Shown here piece after piece: positions 346-4,918 of a DNA stretch of 5,331 nt. The stretch is from Nitrososphaerota archaeon. GTDB lineage: Archaea > Thermoproteota > Nitrososphaeria > Nitrososphaerales > UBA183. The notes beneath the pieces are model-generated. The model was not told the origin of the DNA and searched no databases. It saw only the letters and a program-made list of their open reading frames with translations. Each line of letters opens with the position of its first letter. Position 1 is the stretch's first letter. The translations under genes were made by a program, and so were the position numbers. Where the stretch lies: assembly GCA_027886925.1 (NCBI GenBank), contig JAPCJN010000090.1, positions 3,601-8,931 of the forward strand. The letters are read 5' to 3'.

Positions 346-651
346 CGATCGAGTCTCTTTCTACCTCCCAGAGCGTCATTTCCAGTCGCCTGCTCTTCCG
401 AATCGCCTCAGCCGTCGTCTTAGGCTTCGCCCGAAGGCTCTGCTCGCCAGTCTGATCCGGCCGACGAACCACGTCGTCGTAGTGCCTCACGTCGAGGCAG
501 ACACGAATACTCTCCGAAATCGAGAGGCGATAGTGGTCGCCGCAGCGAGCGACTTTGGATTTCTCGGCTGATAGCGAGCCAAGGATGCCACGAGCGGAGG
601 CGCAATGAACCCTTATGCAAGGCAGAAAACTCTCGCAGGCGAAGCATCAAG
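346..651. other. Gene-poor gap with clustered small hairpins
   Basis: No convincing gene is present here. Open frames on both strands exist but have low-complexity Arg/Ser-rich translations without credible starts. The stretch holds several small inverted repeats: CTTC/GAAG at 425-436, TGCCTC/GAGGCA with a five-base loop at 483-499, CTCTC/GAGAG in the 510s-520s, and GTCGC/GCGAC at 536-553. A pyrimidine-rich run just after the stop at 345 (TCTCTTTCT) could end transcription of the preceding gene. One copy of the intergenic repeat lies at 585-620. A structured non-coding RNA is possible, but I recognise no known family. Confidence 0.4.
585..620 (+). repeat. Intergenic repeat, copy 1 (YA flank)
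   Basis: This copy reads ATGCCACGAGCGGAGG, then CGCAATGAACCC and TTATGCA. It is the reverse complement of the core seen at 1978-2015 and 4001-4032. GGAGG at 596-600 lies four bases before ATG 605, which opens a 17-codon frame (MNPYARQKTLAGEASSH, stop 656-658). A second overlapping mini-frame from ATG 585 reads MPRAEAQ and stops at the TGA that overlaps ATG 605. Its outer flank, TTATGCA next to AACCC, is shared only with the copy at 4001-4032. Confidence 0.8.
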
Positions 652-951
652 TCATTGAGAGACGGGCAAAAGTCCCCAGAACTCTCTAAGCTCGGTCAAC
701 TTGTCGTGGTTCAGCTTCTCGAGGAAGTTCTTGAGGTCTTTCTCGGGACCCCTCCGCTTGAACAAACTGCGCTTTGCCCGACTCTCGGCATAGGCGCCCG
801 TCCACCGCCCCAGGAACTCAACCTCGTTTCCCGTCAGCCACCGCCACCTCCAACTCATTATCCGGCTGGCAAGCCCATCGTCCCCGGATCGACCGAGAAA
901 CGCCTTGAGCACCGCTTCCTTCAGATTCCCGTCTTGGTCTTGAGCCGACAT
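652..951 (-). CDS. Hypothetical 99-residue basic Trp-rich protein
   Basis: I do not recognise this protein. It is 99 residues from ATG 951 to TGA 652-654, with balanced charged and hydrophobic residues typical of a soluble helical protein. Residues 8-20 and 70-92 look helical. Trp is unusually frequent: W34, W36 and W38 form an alternating WRWRW motif, followed by W50 and W92. The middle (58-71) is strongly basic. There is no signal peptide or membrane segment. The start has only a weak purine-rich stretch upstream (AAGGCGAGATC), and no clear TATA box lies at the usual distance. The opposite strand also has a long open frame, but its translation is Pro-rich and of low quality, so the minus strand is preferred. 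DNA or RNA binding would fit the composition, but this is only a guess. Confidence 0.6.
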   Translation of the reverse strand: MSAQDQDGNLKEAVLKAFLGRSGDDGLASRIMSWRWRWLTGNEVEFLGRWTGAYAESRAKRSLFKRRGPEKDLKNFLEKLNHDKLTELREFWGLLPVSQ

Positions 952-1122
952 TGAGATCTCGCCTTGTCATGTCAAGAGATCTCGTCTGCTCCCGCTTCAA
1001 TTCGATCTCGCTTGACTTCATGCCTCCGCACGAACTTAAGGAAGCGCTGACGATAATAAGCATGCATGGTGGCGGAATGCTCAGCCCGTCGTGCATTACC
1101 CGTACCTGAACAGGTGGATAAA

Positions 1123-1150
1123 ATGCCGCGCGGCGGAGGCGCGATGAACA
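1123..1150 (+). repeat. Intergenic repeat, copy 2 (divergent)
   Basis: This copy reads ATGCCGCGCGGCGGAGG then CGCGATGAAC, matching the core in the same orientation as copy 1. The CCC after ATGAA is replaced by CAAGG, so the mini-frame from ATG 1144 reads MNKAAGLSRR and lacks Pro at codon 3. A purine-rich AGGTGG lies a few bases before ATG 1123. The core can pair GCGC with GCGC around the GGAGG loop. Confidence 0.7.
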
Positions 1151-1212
1151 AGGCGGCCGGCCTTTCGCGCAGGTGATCGCATGGTCTGACTAGATACCTC
1201 GGTCCTGGCGGC

Positions 1213-1232
1213 CTTGGTCCGCAAAGACCAAG
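1213..1232. terminator. Perfect 7-bp hairpin downstream of nitroreductase
   Basis: CTTGGTC (1213-1219) pairs perfectly with GACCAAG (1226-1232) around a six-base loop CGCAAA. It lies about 57 bases after the nitroreductase stop codon. There is no U-run after it on the minus strand, so an intrinsic terminator is uncertain; a processing or mRNA-stabilising hairpin, or chance, is also possible. Confidence 0.3.
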
Positions 1233-1288
1233 TCGCGATTATGAGAAGCGATGCTTATGCTTCGGGGGCGCGAAGGTCTCTGGGATGA

Positions 1289-1801
1289 TCACAGCTTGCT
1301 GATCGACTCGCCGTACTTCTCGTGGAACGCAATCTGGTCCAACGGGAGCCTGTTCTTCTTGCCGATAGGCTTCTTCGCAGGGTAACCGAAACCGAGCACC
1401 GCGACGAGTGCCATCTCGCTCGGCGCGTTGATCAACGCCCTCATCTTGGACTCGTCATAACCGGTGTAGTTTCGCGAGGCGATTCCCTTCGCCCAAGCGG
1501 CCAGCTGCATGTGCGTGATGGCCTTCGCGGCGTCGAACTTGCCGAACCGGTCATTGGGGTCGGTCAGGACGACGATCGCAAAATCCGCTCCGGCTATCCA
1601 CCGCCCCGTGGTGCTGATCTCGGCGAGTTTTTGCAGGTCACCAGGCTGGTCCATAAGCACAAAACGCCAGTGCTGCCAGTTCATCGCGCTCGGAGCCAAC
1701 CTGCCCGACTCCAGAATCTCACGTTTGATTTCGGCCGGGACGTGACGCTTGTCGAACTCCTTCGTTTCGAGCCTCGTCTTGATTGCCTCGAAGACTTCCA
1801 T
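1289..1801 (-). CDS. Nitroreductase family protein, FMN-dependent
   Basis: This 170-residue protein belongs to the nitroreductase-like FMN oxidoreductases, which reduce nitro-aromatics, quinones or similar acceptors with NAD(P)H, usually as cytoplasmic homodimers. The true substrate is unknown. Landmarks are an N-terminal helix with the FMN-phosphate region R10 to F16, the family signature APSAMNWQHWRF (36-47), an aspartate-rich central part, LAAWAKGI (100-107), and the C-terminal GFGYPAKK (137-144) and HEKYG (160-164). The usual RRSxR segment is replaced by RLETKEF, keeping R10 but changing Ser to Glu and Arg to Lys; a related TRxEVREF form is familiar to me from archaeal members. The frame continues upstream to an ATG at 1897, but family alignment begins at MEVFEAIK. 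A TATA-like box centred 25 bases before ATG 1801 also fits a leaderless transcript, so 1801 is chosen. Confidence 0.9.
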   Translation of the reverse strand: MEVFEAIKTRLETKEFDKRHVPAEIKREILESGRLAPSAMNWQHWRFVLMDQPGDLQKLAEISTTGRWIAGADFAIVVLTDPNDRFGKFDAAKAITHMQLAAWAKGIASRNYTGYDESKMRALINAPSEMALVAVLGFGYPAKKPIGKKNRLPLDQIAFHEKYGESISKL

Positions 1802-1820
1802 GCCGTTTAGACGATTTCCA

Positions 1821-1830
1821 TCTATATCAA
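1821..1830 (-). promoter_or_regulatory. TATA-like box for leaderless nitroreductase mRNA
   Basis: On the minus strand this reads TTGATATAGA. Its centre is about 25 bases from the A of ATG 1801, the archaeal spacing between TATA box and transcription start, so the transcript probably begins at or very near the start codon. No Shine-Dalgarno motif precedes ATG 1801, which agrees with this. Confidence 0.5.
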
Positions 1831-1977
1831 TCAATAGCTTTGGCAGATGACTGAGTCGCCTCGGCTGAGCCCAAGTAGCGCTACCTAAGTTCAGCATTTA
1901 CGCGGGTCAACGTGGATGAATCGCGAATCGAAATTCGATGAGTTCCGCTACGCGTTGTCAAAATGAAGTAATGGGGC

Positions 1978-2015
1978 TTTCGCCGCACACAGGGTTCATT
2001 GCGCCTCCGCCGGGG
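1978..2015 (-). repeat. Intergenic repeat, copy 3 (VCGE flank)
   Basis: On the shown strand this reads TTTCGCCGCACACAGGG then TTCATTGCGCCTCCGCC and GGGGC. On the minus strand GGAGG is followed by CGCA and ATG 1999, opening a 13-codon frame MNPVCGESPITSF that stops at 1958-1960. GCCTC can pair with GGGGC around a four-base loop. It lies 60 bases downstream of the VOC gene and 177 bases upstream of the nitroreductase start. Confidence 0.85.
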
Positions 2016-2075
2016 CTCTCGCACGGACTGCCCAGTAAAGATTCGGCGGGCGTTCGATGACCAAGGGTGGGAGCG

Positions 2076-2522
2076 CTAATAGGCCTCGGGAATCGAATCG
2101 GCTATTGGCTCTGGTTGGTCATATAGCTCTAGCCAGAGTCCGTCAGGATCTTTTACGTATCGCACGTGAAATGAATCCGAAAAGGCCTGGTGTCTTACTT
2201 CTTGAAGAGGTTCGATTAGGTCGACGTGCCCTGCTCCAGCGCTCTCAAGCCGGTTTACAGTCTCCGCTAAGTTGTCCACCCTGAAGGAGATGTGATCGAG
2301 CCCTTCTCCTGGAACGTATGAAGAAGCATAGACGGAATCGGCTGGATACCAGTTTAACTCGAGCTTCGATCCCGACTTTGGATCCTTGAGCAGCACGAAC
2401 ACGCCACCCCCGTTTTTGGTATTGTCACCTCTGGCCATCTCCTTCAACCCGAACAACATTGTGTAGAACTCGAGTGATTTTGCCAGATTTGTGACTCTTA
2501 TGCCGAAGTAGCTGAGATACAT
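2076..2522 (-). CDS. VOC / glyoxalase I-like metalloenzyme
   Basis: This 148-residue protein has the vicinal-oxygen-chelate fold: two beta-alpha-beta-beta-beta modules that form a metal-binding cup. Module 1 has GIRVTNLAKSLEFYTMLFGL (7-26) and ends KLELNWYP, where E55 is a metal ligand. Module 2 begins GLDHISFRVDN, with ligand H77, and ends KDPDGLWLELYDQ, with ligand E132. The first ligand, a His near residue 5 in glyoxalase I, is Tyr here (Y5). Three of four ligands therefore remain, and lactoylglutathione lyase activity cannot be assumed; methylmalonyl-CoA epimerase-like, dioxygenase or binding roles are also possible. LELNWYP is especially like glyoxalase I. ATG 2522 is chosen because a strong GGAGG lies just upstream and the family begins here. 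The frame extends further up through the repeat at 2555-2594 to ATG 2576. The preceding gene ends 71 bases upstream, so co-transcription is possible. Confidence 0.88.
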   Translation of the reverse strand: MYLSYFGIRVTNLAKSLEFYTMLFGLKEMARGDNTKNGGGVFVLLKDPKSGSKLELNWYPADSVYASSYVPGEGLDHISFRVDNLAETVNRLESAGAGHVDLIEPLQEVRHQAFSDSFHVRYVKDPDGLWLELYDQPEPIADSIPEAY

Positions 2523-2554
2523 GGAACCTCCAATCGAGCCTTCGTGAGAAAAAC

Positions 2555-2594
2555 TTTCGCCACACACAGGGTTCATCGCGCCTCCCCGGGGCAT
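2555..2594 (-). repeat. Intergenic repeat, copy 4 (VCGE flank), abuts stop codon
   Basis: The shown strand reads TTTCGCCACACACAGGG then TTCATCGCGCCTCC and CCGGGGCAT. On the minus strand the copy begins within the TGA stop (2594-2596) of the anchored-protein gene. Its GGAGG precedes ATG 2576, which opens MNPVCGES and runs in frame into the VOC gene 18 codons later. One base of the core is missing relative to copy 3 (CTCCCC instead of CTCCGCC). The hairpin can still form, GCCTC with GGGGC. An A5 run at 2549-2553, T5 on the minus strand, follows and might act as an archaeal terminator. Confidence 0.85.
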
Positions 2595-3124
2595 CAGGTG
2601 ACGGGGAACTGTTCGTTGAATTGGGCGAAGTTCCAAGTCTCTCTTGCGATCAGCCATGAAGAGCCGGCATGCTCGTACACAACCTGCGCTACTATCATCC
2701 CATTTACCTGACCAACTACTGAGCTGTATCCCTGAAAGCCGAGCGTCGAGTTGACCACTGAGACGTTGCCTTTGACTTCGATCGATTGGCTCTCGGCTGA
2801 CACGGAGAAATTGATGAATTTGCCTATGAAGCTCCCCAGCGCGATACCGATGTTGTTCGAGCCTGAGAAGTTTCCCGTCCCCGCGACCTCGATTCCGGTC
2901 CATTCGATCGTCGCATTTGCCTCGTACTCGCTCGCGAGTGCTGATGCGTAATGGCCGCTAAATGGCAGGAGCAGGAGATGATCGGCATAAGCGTTGGCGA
3001 CTTGCTCATTTGGATTCGACGTCGTTACGGTCGCAGTGACGGTCTTTGTGCTGAGAAGGCCGCTGCCCACGAGTGACTGCGAGACGAGCAAGACTACAAG
3101 CATGAGGGCGGTGCCAGAAGCCAC
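2594..3124 (-). CDS. Membrane-anchored NTF2/SnoaL-like protein, frameshifted N-terminus
   Basis: The intact frame from GTG 3124 gives 176 residues. Residues 1-20 are a hydrophobic anchor or signal segment (ALMLVVLLVSQSLVGSG), then a Ser/Thr-rich linker, then a domain from about 42 to 172 that looks NTF2/SnoaL-like and ends in the typical WLIARETWNFAQF. Five N-x-S/T sequons (NAT, NFS, NFS, NVS, NST) support an extracellular, possibly glycosylated, domain. Ligand and role are unknown. The GTG start is poor. Removing one base from the C5 run at 3159-3163 would join the frame to ATG 3167, giving MRGTASRRTRDGIL ahead of the present start: a basic N-terminus before the hydrophobic segment, with GAGG at 3176-3179 as ribosome site and a TATA-like box further up. 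The real protein is thus probably 190 residues. Confidence 0.75.
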   Translation of the reverse strand: MASGTALMLVVLLVSQSLVGSGLLSTKTVTATVTTSNPNEQVANAYADHLLLLPFSGHYASALASEYEANATIEWTGIEVAGTGNFSGSNNIGIALGSFIGKFINFSVSAESQSIEVKGNVSVVNSTLGFQGYSSVVGQVNGMIVAQVVYEHAGSSWLIARETWNFAQFNEQFPVT

Positions 3125-3158
3125 CAGGATGCCGTCTCTCGTCCTTCGCGATGCTGTT

Positions 3159-3167
3159 CCCCCGCAT
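3159..3167 (-). other. Frame break in C5/G5 run; likely true start ATG 3167
   Basis: On the minus strand ATGCGGGGGAACAGC reads out of frame with the anchored-protein gene. With four G instead of five, ATG 3167 leads directly into the gene. GAGG sits eight bases upstream of this ATG. Sequencing error, true mutation or slippage cannot be told apart from sequence alone. Confidence 0.6.
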
Positions 3168-3191
3168 GCGTTGTTCCTCGTAACTCAATTT

Positions 3192-3213
3192 GCGGAGGCG
3201 TGATATTTACCCG
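3192..3213 (+). repeat. Possible degenerate repeat copy
   Basis: GCGGAGGCGTGATATTTACCC resembles the core GCGGAGGCGCAATGAACCC with a small insertion and lost ATG. It overlaps the TATA-like box of the anchored-protein gene. The match is short, so chance is quite possible. Confidence 0.3.
3202..3209 (-). promoter_or_regulatory. TATA-like box for anchored-protein gene
   Basis: The minus strand reads TAAATATC. Its centre is about 38 bases from ATG 3167, predicting a start near 3180 and a very short leader that still carries GAGG. The spacing resembles that of other TATA-like boxes in this window. Confidence 0.45.
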
Positions 3214-3246
3214 TTCAGCAGAAGGACTGTTCGGCGCAGAAAGTGA

Positions 3247-3287
3247 TTTCGCCGTGCACGGGGTTCATTTCGCCTCCGCCGGCGCAT
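3247..3287 (-). repeat. Intergenic repeat, copy 5 (V-H-GE flank)
   Basis: The shown strand reads TTTCGCCGTGCACGGGG then TTCATTTCGCCTCCGCC and GGCGCAT. On the minus strand GGAGG precedes ATG 3268, which opens MNPVHGEITFCAEQSFC and stops at 3215-3217. The flanking CGCC and GGCG can pair around the CTCC loop region. It lies 25 bases downstream of the stop of the gene at 3312-3620 and upstream of the anchored-protein gene. Confidence 0.85.
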
Positions 3288-3311
3288 TTCTCATTCACAC
3301 GCTTTGGGCTA

Positions 3312-3620
3312 TTAGAGTTCCAAGCTGATTCGTGCGAGGTAGGCGTAATGCTCCTTCTTCTCGGGGGCGTGCGGTCGCTCGTCCAGTCTGCTACCCGCCG
3401 GTTGAGACGTTTCCAGCTTGTCAGATTTGAGATGCGCTTGGAACTCTGGGCCGGTCAGCTCAAAGGATTGAATGACCTTGTTGTTCGTTGCGTCGACTAT
3501 CTCGACGCCGGATATCGGGTGGAAGCCCCTAGCCTCGAGCGGTTGCATCCTGTCCCACATCTCCTTTACCGCGTCCCGGATTGTCATCCCCCTGCCGTCA
3601 ATGTTAATCGTCTCGGGCAT
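3312..3620 (-). CDS. Hypothetical 102-residue protein
   Basis: I do not recognise a family. From ATG 3620 the protein starts with a strand (ETINIDG), then a clear amphipathic helix TIRDAVKEMWDRMQPLEARG (13-32). Strands GVEIVDATNNKVIQSFEL follow at about 38-55, with a helix PEFQAHLKSDK after them. The tail from about 70 is Pro/charged and probably disordered before a final hydrophobic end (YLARISLEL). No signal peptide or membrane segment is visible, so it is probably cytoplasmic. A TATA-like TTAAGTA lies about 33 bases upstream, giving a nearly leaderless transcript, and no strong ribosome site precedes the ATG. It is followed by a repeat copy 25 bases after the stop. Opposite-strand frames here are shadows with poor composition. 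Confidence 0.7.
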   Translation of the reverse strand: MPETINIDGRGMTIRDAVKEMWDRMQPLEARGFHPISGVEIVDATNNKVIQSFELTGPEFQAHLKSDKLETSQPAGSRLDERPHAPEKKEHYAYLARISLEL

Positions 3621-3649
3621 CGCGCCTGGAAACGGTGGACCTGGGCTGC

Positions 3650-3656
3650 TACTTAA
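3650..3656 (-). promoter_or_regulatory. TATA-like box for the 102-residue gene
   Basis: The minus strand reads TTAAGTA, with the centre about 33 bases from ATG 3620. Transcription would start near 3627 and leave a leader of under ten bases. Confidence 0.35.
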
Positions 3657-3718
3657 CCTTGAGATGTGACGAATACTCGGGCTCTGACAGCTCTCTTGGT
3701 TAGTACGACCCGGTTCAA

Positions 3719-3913
3719 CTATGAGACCACTCGCGTCTTCGTTTCACTCCATTCCTCATACTCTCCGCGAGCGAACTCCTTCCTTCCCTCCTCTATGGCC
3801 TTGATCTCCACTTTCGTCGGTCGGACCTCTTGAATGAGCATGGCCTTGATTTCTTCCAAGTCGCGTCTGATAATTCTCATTTCATCTTGAATCTGCTTCA
3901 TGTCGCTCTTCAA
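3719..3913 (-). CDS. Small antitoxin-like protein without visible toxin partner
   Basis: This protein is 64 residues from TTG 3913, or 60 from the in-frame ATG 3901. Residues 1-27 form a coiled-coil helix with heptad-spaced Met/Ile/Leu (MKQIQDEMRIIRRDLEEIKA). After a PT turn comes KAIEEGRKEFARGEYEEW, very like the C-terminal toxin-binding part of small archaeal antitoxin-like (RelB/VapB-type) proteins. Such proteins normally neutralise an adjacent RelE- or PIN-type toxin and repress their own operon. Here only about 98 bases separate its stop from the next gene, too few for a toxin, so it is an orphan or pairs with a toxin elsewhere. It is divergent from vapBC. TTG is preferred slightly because a TTATAA box lies about 40 bases upstream, but ATG 3901 is also credible. 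Confidence 0.7.
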   Translation of the reverse strand: MKSDMKQIQDEMRIIRRDLEEIKAMLIQEVRPTKVEIKAIEEGRKEFARGEYEEWSETKTRVVS

Positions 3914-3950
3914 TTTTCCCGACCCTTAGGCAGAGTCAGCTAAATCCATC

Positions 3951-3956
3951 TTATAA
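3951..3956 (-). promoter_or_regulatory. TATA-like box for the antitoxin-like gene
   Basis: TTATAA within an A/T-rich stretch (TTATAACATA) lies about 40 bases before TTG 3913 and 52 before ATG 3901. It is the only A/T-rich patch in the gap that faces this gene. Confidence 0.4.
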
Positions 3957-4000
3957 CATAACATGTGGGTTTCGGGTTAATCAGGAAGGTCGGTGGCCAT

Positions 4001-4032
4001 GCATAAGGGTTCATTGCTCGTCCGCCGGTCAT
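4001..4032 (-). repeat. Intergenic repeat, copy 6 (YA flank)
   Basis: The shown strand reads GCATAAGGGTTCATTGC then TCGTCCGCCGGTCAT. It shares GCATAAGGGTTCATTGC exactly with the complement of copy 1, while the GGAGG half is mutated to GGACGAG. On the minus strand ATG 4014 opens a 24-codon frame beginning MNPYAWPPTFLINPK and stopping at 3940-3942. It lies in the divergent gap between the antitoxin-like gene and vapB. Confidence 0.8.
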
Positions 4033-4173
4033 TTCGTTCATCTTGAAAGCCATGGACATCAAGGTTGCGATGTCGATTAAAGGCGAACCTGATTCGATTA
4101 GCGATGGAGAGCGAAGGGGAGAATCGCGCTCGAGGCATTGCCCGGAACGCTTCTGAAGGCCGTCCAGGAAGAG

Positions 4174-4179
4174 TTATAG
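4174..4179 (+). promoter_or_regulatory. TATA-like box for vapBC
   Basis: TTATAG in GAGTTATAGG lies about 36 bases before the proposed vapB start TTG 4212, the same spacing as for other genes here. Transcription would begin near 4201. Confidence 0.45.
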
Positions 4180-4185
4180 GAACCC

Positions 4186-4204
4186 ACACACAGATACACA
4201 CAGA
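4186..4204 (+). promoter_or_regulatory. Candidate vapBC operator: direct repeat of ACACACAGA
   Basis: ACACACAGA occurs at 4186-4194 and again at 4196-4204, a ten-base period that puts both copies on the same DNA face. The pair lies between the TATA-like box and the vapB start, over the predicted transcription start. VapB-type antitoxins usually repress their own operon, so this is a reasonable autoregulatory site, though it could be a simple CA-rich coincidence. Confidence 0.4.
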
Positions 4205-4211
4205 GATTTCC

Positions 4212-4445
4212 TTGGGTACGAAGAACATAGCCATCTCAGACGAGGCTTACCAGAGGCTGAAGGCTCTCAAAAAACCGGGGGAGAGCTTTACAGAATTGAT
4301 AGAGAGGATGACGCGGAGCAGGGGGATCCTCGAACTGTCAGGCATTCTCTCCAATCAGGAAGCGTCGCGCGTGAGCCAAGTGGTCAGGGAGACTAGAAGA
4401 GAGAGTTCGAAGCGCCTCCACCGCACGATCGAAAGGCTGGGCTGA
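4212..4445 (+). CDS. vapB: VapB antitoxin, DUF217-like
   Basis: From TTG 4212 the protein is 77 residues. It starts MGTKNIAISDEAYQRLKALK, then KPGESFTELIERM, then LELSGIL, the typical order of archaeal DUF217-type VapB antitoxins. The N-terminal part is a ribbon-helix-helix-like DNA-binding and dimerisation region, and the basic helical tail (50-76) should wrap the VapC active site. The frame continues upstream to ATG 4065, but those codons give no recognisable sequence and cross a TATA-like box and the CA-rich repeat, so TTG 4212 is preferred. A weak GAGAT lies just before it. Its TGA stop overlaps the proposed vapC start by two bases, showing tight translational coupling. Its expected role is to neutralise VapC and autorepress. 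Confidence 0.85.
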   Translation: MGTKNIAISDEAYQRLKALKKPGESFTELIERMTRSRGILELSGILSNQEASRVSQVVRETRRESSKRLHRTIERLG

Positions 4446-4843
4446 GACTCCTGCTTGCAGACACAGCCTTCCTCATCGACGTCATGAAAGCTGACGAGAA
4501 AGCCCTCGCGAAGGCCAAGGAACTAGAGGCCGACTCGATCCCAGTCCTCGTTGGAGCTCCGACGATATTCGAGCTGTATGTCGGCGTCGGGTTGAGCGTG
4601 AGGTCTTCCGAGGAGAAGGAGAGGGTCCTGGAAGTGTTGAGGTCTCTCACCCACCTTCCTCTCGACCAGCAGTCGGCGACGAGGGCTGGTCTGGTCTACG
4701 CACATCGGTCAAGGGAAGGCGTGGAGATGGACCCTGAGGACGCGATGATCGCGGGCATAGCCTTGGAGAACCACGAGACCCTGTTGACACGCAACAGGAG
4801 GCATTTCTCGGGCATCCCCGAGTTGAAGCTCGAAGGCTATTAG
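4442..4843 (+). CDS. vapC: VapC toxin, PIN-domain ribonuclease
   Basis: From CTG 4442 the protein is 133 residues, the normal VapC size. PIN-domain landmarks are LLLADTAFLID with catalytic D7, APTIFELYVG with E44, MDPEDAMIAGIAL with D100, and LLTRNRRHF with N118 near the fourth metal-ligand position. These residues bind Mg2+ or Mn2+ for RNA cleavage; the RNA target is unknown. The first in-frame ATG is 4484, but starting there removes the first strand and D7, so the toxin would be inactive. Upstream, no ATG, GTG or TTG exists before an in-frame stop at 4394-4396. CTG 4442 overlaps the vapB stop as CTGA, exactly where toxin genes usually have ATGA. Either CTG is the start, or an A-to-C change has crippled translation. 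The C-terminus (IPELKLEGY) is complete. Confidence 0.85.
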   Translation: MRLLLADTAFLIDVMKADEKALAKAKELEADSIPVLVGAPTIFELYVGVGLSVRSSEEKERVLEVLRSLTHLPLDQQSATRAGLVYAHRSREGVEMDPEDAMIAGIALENHETLLTRNRRHFSGIPELKLEGY

Positions 4844-4884
4844 ATTTTCGGCAGTCCGGCGAAGCTCAATGAGAATCGGATTGG

Positions 4885-4918
4885 GCCGTGTACAGGGTTG
4901 CGCCTCAGTCCGGGGCAC
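4885..4918 (-). repeat. Intergenic repeat, copy 7 (degenerate)
   Basis: The shown strand reads GCCGTGTACAGGGTT, then GCGCCTCAGTCCGGGGCAC. Relative to copies 3 to 5 it has lost the CAT between GGGTT and GCGCC, so the mini-frame start is gone, and CTCCGCC is changed to CTCAGTCC. The outer flank CCGTGTACAGGG is closest to copies 3 and 5. It lies 41 bases after the vapC stop. Confidence 0.65.

Follow-up and report, generated by a model that had tools for sequence, protein, structure and literature searches.

Intergenic repeats of soil Nitrososphaeria are probable recombination sites of an integron-like gene-cassette array at a 23S rRNA maturation signal

A 5,331-nucleotide stretch of DNA from a Nitrososphaerota archaeon (assembly GCA_027886925.1, contig JAPCJN010000090.1, positions 3,601 to 8,931; hereafter the window) carries seven copies of a short repeat, each lying in a gap between small genes. 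A previous reading of the window from its letters alone (the sequence-only reading) had proposed a dedicated intergenic repeat family that it could match to no named archaeal element, and we likewise found no named archaeal counterpart. Comparison with related genomes shows that the repeat derives from a processing signal of the pre-23S rRNA, and its copies probably serve as recombination sites in an integron-like array of gene cassettes seated at this host rRNA maturation signal. Genomes, contigs and loci are designated below by G, C and L numbers.

Repeat copies and genes in the window

The core GGGTTCATTGCGCCTCCGCC, or its complement, occurs six times in the window at zero to three mismatches, compared with 0.000 copies expected from 200 dinucleotide shuffles. 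It lies on the minus strand at 593–612 and 1132–1151, and on the plus strand at 1992–2011, 2569–2588, 3261–3280 and 4007–4026. A seventh copy (about 4885–4918) has lost four bases of one arm and reaches 6.7 bits in a profile scan; because this is below the 14-bit cut-off used for site counts, the counts given later take in six window copies. The seven copies noted previously are thus real, the seventh being a deletion copy, and they run as described, two in one orientation and then five in the other. An Rfam scan of the window gave no match.

In the two leftmost sites the strand equivalent to the rRNA (rRNA sense) is the plus strand. Site c1 (593–623) joins the core AGCGGAGGCGCAATGAACCC to the arm TTATGCAAGGC, with one mismatch to the 20-mer and a score of 30.3 bits, and c2 (1131–1151) has a decayed right arm (GATGAACAA), three mismatches and 15.2 bits. 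The remaining sites have the rRNA sense on the minus strand. Site c3 (1982–2016) holds a perfect core at 1992–2011 with the arm TGTGTGCGGCGAAAG (0 mismatches, 36.2 bits), and c4 (2559–2594) has three mismatches (24.9 bits). Site c5 (3251–3315, core 3261–3280) has one mismatch and scores 34.4 bits over 3251–3290; on its upstream side, about 33 nucleotides resemble the 23S rRNA 3′ end by eye. Site c6 (3996–4029) carries the arm TTATGCATGGCC (two mismatches, 30.6 bits), and c7 (4885–4918) is degenerate, reading as a site from which four right-arm bases were deleted.

As the sequence-only reading held, the copies lie between plausible genes, judged from open reading frames (ORFs) and Pfam matches, and some copies are overlapped by longer, spurious ORFs. 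Between c1 and c2, a gene at 652–951 (minus strand) encodes 99 amino acids without a Pfam family and runs opposite to the site sense. Between c3 and c4 lies a gene of the glyoxalase/VOC family (2076–2519, minus; PF00903, E 3e-14), whose homologue at 36% identity is flanked by two sites in the array G002:C108. The protein of 176 amino acids encoded between c4 and c5 (2594–3124, minus) has no Pfam family; its homologues (27–40% identity) are flanked by sites in G001:C22 and G001:C107, and occur as well on the array contig G014:C57. The unit from c5 to c6 holds a gene for 102 amino acids (3312–3620, minus) with no Pfam family and with an 85% identical protein in the array G001:C51, and a second small ORF (3719–3913, minus; 64 amino acids, no Pfam family). 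Between c6 and c7 lie a VapB-type antitoxin gene (4191–4445, plus; PF02697, E 3.6e-17) and a VapC-type PIN toxin gene (4484–4843, plus; PF01850, E 1.3e-09), with homologues in G001:C51 at 74% and 72% identity, respectively.

A nitroreductase gene (1289–1846, minus; PF00881, E 1.5e-16) sits where the two site orientations meet. Around it, between c2 and c3 (window positions 1131–2016), site orientation reverses, which may reflect the meeting of two opposed arrays or an inversion. L189 holds a comparable pair of facing sites (7361 on the plus strand and 11092 on the minus strand).

Distribution and layout of the arrays

A scan of GTDB species genomes with GGGTTCATYGCGCCTCCGC yielded 77 stretches, 69 of them from archaeal metagenome-assembled genomes (MAGs) labelled Thaumarchaeota, Nitrososphaerota, Nitrososphaerales, Candidatus Gagatemarchaeum stordalenia or simply ‘archaeon’. 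The array hosts are soil Nitrososphaeria. The eight bacterial stretches were treated as chance matches, as was a lone match within an ORF of a phage-like viral contig (L078). Among G001 and its relatives, 35 of 61 genomes have a match, with at least four matches in 20 of them and one or two in the remaining 15. In 15 archaeal genomes there are 224 matches at up to three mismatches and 2 for the reversed pattern, which excludes a near-random count in these relatives.

Mapping of 31 array segments gave 170 sites at or above 14 bits. Of these, only five lie inside called genes, against about 135 expected at a coding fraction of 0.79, and these gene counts are approximate because genes were called with our own hexamer script. 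A dedicated intergenic family is therefore confirmed in the relatives. The units delimited by the sites have a median length of 956 bp, with quartiles at 644 and 1509 bp, and most of 128 units hold one gene (64) or two (39). With such spacing, and with genes between the sites, the arrays are not clustered regularly interspaced short palindromic repeats (CRISPR), as the sequence-only reading had concluded.

A larger set comprises 252 sites in 61 of 63 sequences. Within it, 176 of 178 pairs of neighbouring sites less than 4 kb apart are co-oriented, and the exceptions are c2/c3 of the window and one pair in L189. Loci were chosen for holding matches, so site density is a biased estimate, and the orientation counts are unaffected by this choice. 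The richest pieces (G001:C107, G001:C51, G002:C108 and G002:C9) are about 17–18 kb long and hold 12–17 sites.

By eye, the 60 or so nucleotides downstream of many sites are alike within a genome and different between genomes, and they include a terminator-like run of T. In the G001 arrays (L109, L110, L112 and L113) this stretch reads GGCGAATGCCC..GCATTTTT...TAGCGGAGC, and in G002 it reads GGCACTTGCC.TTTTTACGGC.

Relation to the pre-23S rRNA processing stem

On sequence grounds, the core corresponds to the 3′ strand of the bulge-helix-bulge (BHB) processing stem of the pre-23S rRNA, which follows directly after the mature 23S rRNA. The BHB is described as an archaeal pre-rRNA processing signal in PMC7714728. 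The longest copies extend into genuine 23S rRNA 3′ ends (Rfam RF02540), and in G007 and G002, each with a completely assembled 23S gene, the core lies directly past the end of the Rfam 23S match. In both it pairs with the stretch that immediately precedes the 23S 5′ end; the pairing in G007, written by hand as GCCATGCATAGGGTTC-GCGC-AAG-CATCCGCCGGGGAT against ATTCCCCGGCGGAG-GCGC-AAT-GAACCCTTATGCATGGC, has the BHB form. The leader GCC[A/G]TGCATAGGGTTCGCGCAAGCATCCGCC is carried by seven genomes. When leader and trailer were folded together for four genomes (for G001 with the leader and the 23S end taken from different contigs), one long stem with central bulges resulted, at −46 to −59 kcal/mol. 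For G007, the textbook succession of helix, bulge, 4-bp helix, bulge and helix scores −57.1 kcal/mol, compared with a folding minimum of −57.2 kcal/mol that moves a few central pairs relative to the textbook form.

The site matches the 3′ strand of the 23S BHB stem (PMC7714728) in its outer helix, AAT bulge, GCGC helix and inner helix. The arrays differ from that stem in having yielded one strand only. In 62 array loci, the leader strand (up to three mismatches) was matched twice, both times at a real rRNA leader, and no cassette with a complete BHB was found. Because only one strand of the stem was found there, array sites are unable to form a BHB in cis. The hairpin of GCCTC with GGGGC suggested by the sequence-only reading is not the natural fold, as the pairing partner strand lies upstream of the 23S gene, and the GGGGCAT that it saw frequently flanking the core is a piece of 23S-like sequence adjoining it. 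Its suggestion of an RNA processing signal correctly names the source of the sequence, the 3′ half of the 23S BHB stem. A protein-binding site, which it also raised, probably describes the function in the arrays, where the copies would act as recombination sites.

The trailers of more distant relatives are related but different. A pattern built from array-free trailers matched 6 of 15 distant relatives, once each, the other nine having no match. This single occurrence per matching genome points to the rRNA signal as the most likely ancestral state, from which the arrays would be derived.

Anchoring at the 23S gene

Ten of 11 assembled 23S 3′ ends have more sites downstream, 36 in the same orientation as the trailer and 0 in the opposite one. 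In eight of these the contig extends for 327 bases or more on the 23S side, and seven of the eight have further sites, 17 sites in all. Three ends (G001:C101, G011:C4 and G014:C57) are possibly long truncated 23S copies, because only 143–181 bases are assembled before the contig end. In G026, a 1.70-Mb contig is broken within the 23S gene, with the leader at the contig end and the 23S 3′ end and its array at the contig start.

The array arms were also compared with the leader of their host. In the two site-bearing genomes whose leader has A at the variable position, T stands opposite in 20 of 22 readable arms (T to other bases, 14:1 in G002 and 6:1 in G007). Where the leader has G, the arms show C in G003 (5 of 6) and G026 (6 of 7), a mixture of 21 T, 7 C and 2 G in G001, and one C and one A in G021; both T and C pair with G. 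These figures leave out unreadable arms, which number 31 of 46 in G002, 19 of 49 in G001, 3 of 10 in G007, 5 of 11 in G003, 4 of 11 in G026 and 7 of 9 in G021.

Several rRNA loci have features of their own. In the middle of a 127-kb contig of G009 (C88; L130:7267–7475), a 23S 3′-end fragment of about 200 nucleotides is followed by a site with no 23S body adjoining, and could possibly be a newborn cassette. In L123 (1–5836) and L141 (1334–7058), the Rfam 23S match spans about 4.0–4.1 kb, compared with a model of 2,987 positions, and the 16S gene of L123 holds about 0.8 kb of extra sequence with an ORF at 516–1244; these oversized 23S genes and the 16S gene likely contain rRNA introns.

Architecture of the site

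Mismatches to CCCGGCGGAGGCGCAATGAACCCT were scored in 240 array sites, excluding the 23S gene itself. They co-occur within a left block (CCCGGCGGAG), where one position is weakly linked to the others, and within a right block (about TGAACCCT), but not between the blocks, and the centre GGCGC is least variable (0.02–0.06). The mean mismatch correlation is 0.172 in the left block, 0.140 in the right block and −0.070 between them, whereas values from 1000 column shuffles do not exceed 0.035 and 0.051. After removal of sites with identical 15-nucleotide flanks, the remaining 212 sites give 0.171, 0.124 and −0.068. Two blocks around a near-invariant centre form the pattern expected of two recombinase-bound half-sites around a crossover region, and the cassette junctions described below place the switch in sequence within this stretch as well.

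Upstream of the core, homology to the 23S gene is graded in length: of 241 sites, 105 have 15 nucleotides or more of it, 53 have 30 or more and 10 have 60 or more, with a maximum of 176. When the upstream sequence was shuffled (10 shuffles), the counts for these three lengths fell to 3.5, 0 and 0.

Cassette boundaries and cargo

To locate cassette ends, we used 104 alignments of at least 200 bp between different contigs, with rRNA-containing alignments dropped and alignment ends within 30 bp of the end of a stretch excluded. In array territory, 65 of 231 alignment ends lie no more than 60 bp from the centre of a site, whereas 500 shifted controls gave a mean of 14.6 and at most 31. Of 54 DNA similarities, 46 preserve the orientation of the cassette relative to its site. 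Only three alignments cross a site, all of them between G003 and G006, which are 98% identical where compared.

Individual junctions reveal cassettes with changed neighbours. G003:C110 and G006:C123 have the right-hand cassette in common and unrelated sequence to the left, one of the two left sides being a 5′-truncated 23S end. In G040, two copies of one cassette (97% identical) match through GGCGG-GGCGCAA and then diverge, and in G008 the first cassette after the 23S gene recurs (83% identical) behind a different left half, with identity beginning at GGAGGCGC. Two cassettes that adjoin in G016:C119 have exchanged their order in G001:C51 (88% and 83% identical), where 8.5 kb separates them. 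Site c5 of the window is itself such a junction, as the upstream cassette is common to G001:C51 (87%) and the downstream cassette is different.

The cargo is diverse, with numerous toxin–antitoxin, GNAT and methyltransferase genes among the 148 of 160 listed cassette genes that were scanned with Pfam. The commonest families, among the best 25 of 148, are methyltransferase (6), PIN (6), GNAT (5), MazE (5) and ParE (4), followed by HicA, YoeB-like and Fic families at three each. Among 210 cassette genes, 58 belong to multi-member families, the largest of which has five members. PADLOC returned few defence matches among the cargo (18 families). The cargo of chromosomal integrons is similar, being diverse and including many toxin–antitoxin genes. 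Three integrase-bearing contigs share a two-gene block beside sites (L136:872–2994, L138:12–2141 and L135:6127–7452; 74–81% DNA identity).

Comparison with integrons and search for a recombinase

Among known systems, integrons are the principal one for storing single genes at a dedicated site. Like chromosomal and archaeal integrons (Ghaly et al. 2022, PMC9668308), the arrays are long one-way series of small cassettes, each with a single recombination site, and share with them genome-specific site variants, re-ordering of cassettes and clusters that have no recombinase nearby, such as clusters of attC sites lacking integron-integrases (CALINs). Co-oriented cassette sites are found in nearly every neighbouring pair, and exchange and re-ordering at sites are seen by genome comparison only. 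There are also differences: integrons have IntI, folded attC sites and attI beside intI, whereas here there are a short rRNA-derived core, an anchor at the 23S 3′ end and genes on both strands.

A classical attC/IntI integron was rejected. No IntI-type recombinase (TIGR02249) exceeds the cut-off in any of 24 genomes (best score 60.9 bits, compared with 265), and weak TIGR02249 matches (E ≤ 0.001) occur in 12 of these 24 genomes and in 14 of 14 control genomes. Box pairs of the attC type (RYYYAAC/GTTRRRY) flank 4 of 247 sites, compared with a random-control mean of 0.75, and are thus rare.

Among other recombinases, PF00589 has matches in 11 of 15 and in 8 of 9 genomes. Seven of 37 tyrosine recombinases (15 genomes) lie within 5 kb of a site, where contig extent allowed; six of these are upstream of the site and co-directed with it within 4.6 kb, and one is opposite. 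Contigs with a tyrosine recombinase next to a site include G001:C86, G002:C2, G002:C114 and G014:C25. Three of the six fall in one clade of 11 and have a C-terminal cysteine tail that resembles a zinc ribbon by eye. This clade was rejected as the candidate enzyme, as 8 of its 11 members have no nearby site. Serine resolvases (PF00239, in 10 of 24 genomes) and PF16795 (in 0 of 24) were set aside as well, their searches having been of no help. None of 23 further recombinase places in nine genomes, compared by eye, is within 5 kb of a pattern match. Because site-adjacent recombinases are few, most members of the clade are without sites and the 23 further places are distant, we name no enzyme. A serine-resolvase-type gene (a 207-amino-acid frame, G026:C1:1026769–1027149) lies some 1.7 kb away from the second G026 array, in a genome with no PF00589 match.

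Competing explanations

Several observations weigh against cassette exchange by a dedicated recombinase. Gene direction is mixed (120 genes with the site sense and 97 against it), unlike typical integron cassettes, whose promoterless genes are read one way from Pc. Orientation to the site is inconsistent in 8 of the 54 DNA similarities and is kept in only 28 of 43 pairs of homologous cassette proteins. The 23S end of G004 has no array, and several arrays lie away from an assembled 23S gene (G009:C44 and the second array of G026); the 23S gene is the main, not the sole, array position. No recombinase family that we searched for is common to all hosts: PF00589 is without a match in G003, G005, G006, G013 and G026, even though G003 and G006 differ at a junction, and neither the partial spread of PF00239, the absence of PF16795 nor the few tyrosine recombinases near sites closes this gap. 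Enzymes acting from plasmids or viruses, or the incompleteness of the MAGs, may explain the missing common recombinase. The negative correlation between the arms is partly caused by choosing sites on total score; this selection inflates the negative value between blocks and should not create the positive correlations within them. Some of the breaks at short repeats may stem from misassembly of short reads, which is possible in any single case, but the exchange pattern recurs across several independent assemblies.

The sites could instead be att scars, left as separate small mobile elements or satellites accreted at the 23S trailer (as attB) by means of their own or a helper integrase, with no shuffling of cassettes. 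Archaeal elements that integrated in tandem at a single site are on record (PMC6563490), and the six co-directed tyrosine recombinases upstream of sites, half of them in one clade, are compatible with such a history. The units are nevertheless too small, with mostly one or two genes, to carry an integrase of their own. No recombinase family appears among the best 25 of 148 Pfam families, and no cassette-gene family exceeds five members, although integrases could have been lost earlier. Swapped cassette order and two independently varying arms point to repeated exchange and not to one-way scars, which makes accretion unlikely. A different history would be one in which a 5′-truncated pre-23S 3′ end, or a BHB-spliced product, was reverse transcribed and inserted, with the splicing endonuclease cut setting the junction. 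Upstream 23S homology indeed stops at many points, as in 5′-truncated retrocopies, and the junction zone GGCGCAA coincides with the expected place of BHB cutting. Such an RNA-coupled origin is nonetheless improbable, given that cassette genes lie on both strands, that the BHB leader strand was not found in cassettes of the 62 array loci and that shared left or right halves are directly explained by DNA exchange. Retroposition of the kind known from long and short interspersed elements was dropped as the principal explanation, in view of the one-way arrays and the genes on both strands.

Homologous recombination between repeats inherited from rRNA fragments would require no dedicated recombinase, in keeping with the lack of a searched recombinase family in all hosts, and some sites do share longer 23S-derived flanks (at least 45 nucleotides in 23 of 241). 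However, the common core measures only about 20 nucleotides, with a near-invariant centre of five and arms that decay independently, and this process leaves unexplained why most gene gaps of an array hold one co-oriented site; we consider it very improbable. Least probable of all is the suggestion in the sequence-only reading of an element like a repetitive extragenic palindrome or a miniature inverted-repeat transposable element, dispersed with a preference for gene gaps and locally amplified into arrays. The intergenic position and the many diverged copies agree with it, but it is contradicted by the one-way arrays, the anchoring at 23S genes and the sites marking the ends of exchangeable cassettes, and no terminal inverted repeats were noticed when rows of sites were inspected by eye.

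Proposed mechanism

In the cassette array that we favour, each unit is mostly one or two small genes and one site. A site-specific recombinase would exchange strands in GGCGC, between the left arm CCCGGCGGAG and a right arm of approximately (A)TGAACCCT, and would thereby add cassettes head to tail, take them out and change their order. The main anchor is the 23S gene, whose 3′ end acts like attI. On insertion there, the left side (inner helix) would stay with the 23S gene, while the right arm (TGAACCCTTATGCATGGC) would be supplied by the cassette and would rebuild the strand that pairs with the leader. Insertion should be harmless because the crossover is predicted to fall past the mature 23S rRNA, as placed by Rfam, and because the incoming right arm would restore pairing with the leader, so that rRNA processing would be preserved. 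New cassettes may be born by fusion of a gene to a 5′-truncated 23S end.

A more far-reaching version holds that the arrays are a second, independently evolved gene-capture platform that arose from the 23S maturation signal, with cassettes born by fusion to 5′-truncated 23S ends, perhaps with RNA involved where the BHB is cut, and with right arms kept by selection for the pre-rRNA stem. We put this forward tentatively, as a possible but doubtful extension.

Discussion

The closest published counterparts share parts of this arrangement. The tandem integrated elements at tRNA genes and in Thaumarchaeota (PMC6563490) likewise use the 3′ end of an RNA gene as attachment site, build up head to tail and restore the gene. 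Here, by comparison, the units are about 1 kb and mostly of one or two genes, dozens of sites occur in the richest genomes and the target is the 23S gene. Neither ‘23S’ nor ‘rRNA’ appears in the main text of PMC6563490, and ‘rRNA’ does not appear in PMC9668308. The genome paper on the Gagatemarchaeaceae (PMC10640624) does not contain ‘integron’, ‘integrase’, ‘repeat’ or ‘mobile genetic’. Among the matches listed in a search of the open-access literature, a scope that leaves most subscription papers and bioRxiv preprints outside, there was no published description of cassette arrays at 23S genes.

If the proposed reading is correct, uncultured archaea possess a non-homologous equivalent of the integron, and gene-capture arrays evolved more than once. 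Gene acquisition would then be tied to rRNA maturation. How cassettes arise is an open question for integrons, and the 23S ends of graded length that stand beside captured genes would provide a visible record of cassette birth. For the Gagatemarchaeaceae and their relatives, the arrays predict where accessory genes accumulate, and they may explain why several assemblies break within or beside the 23S gene.

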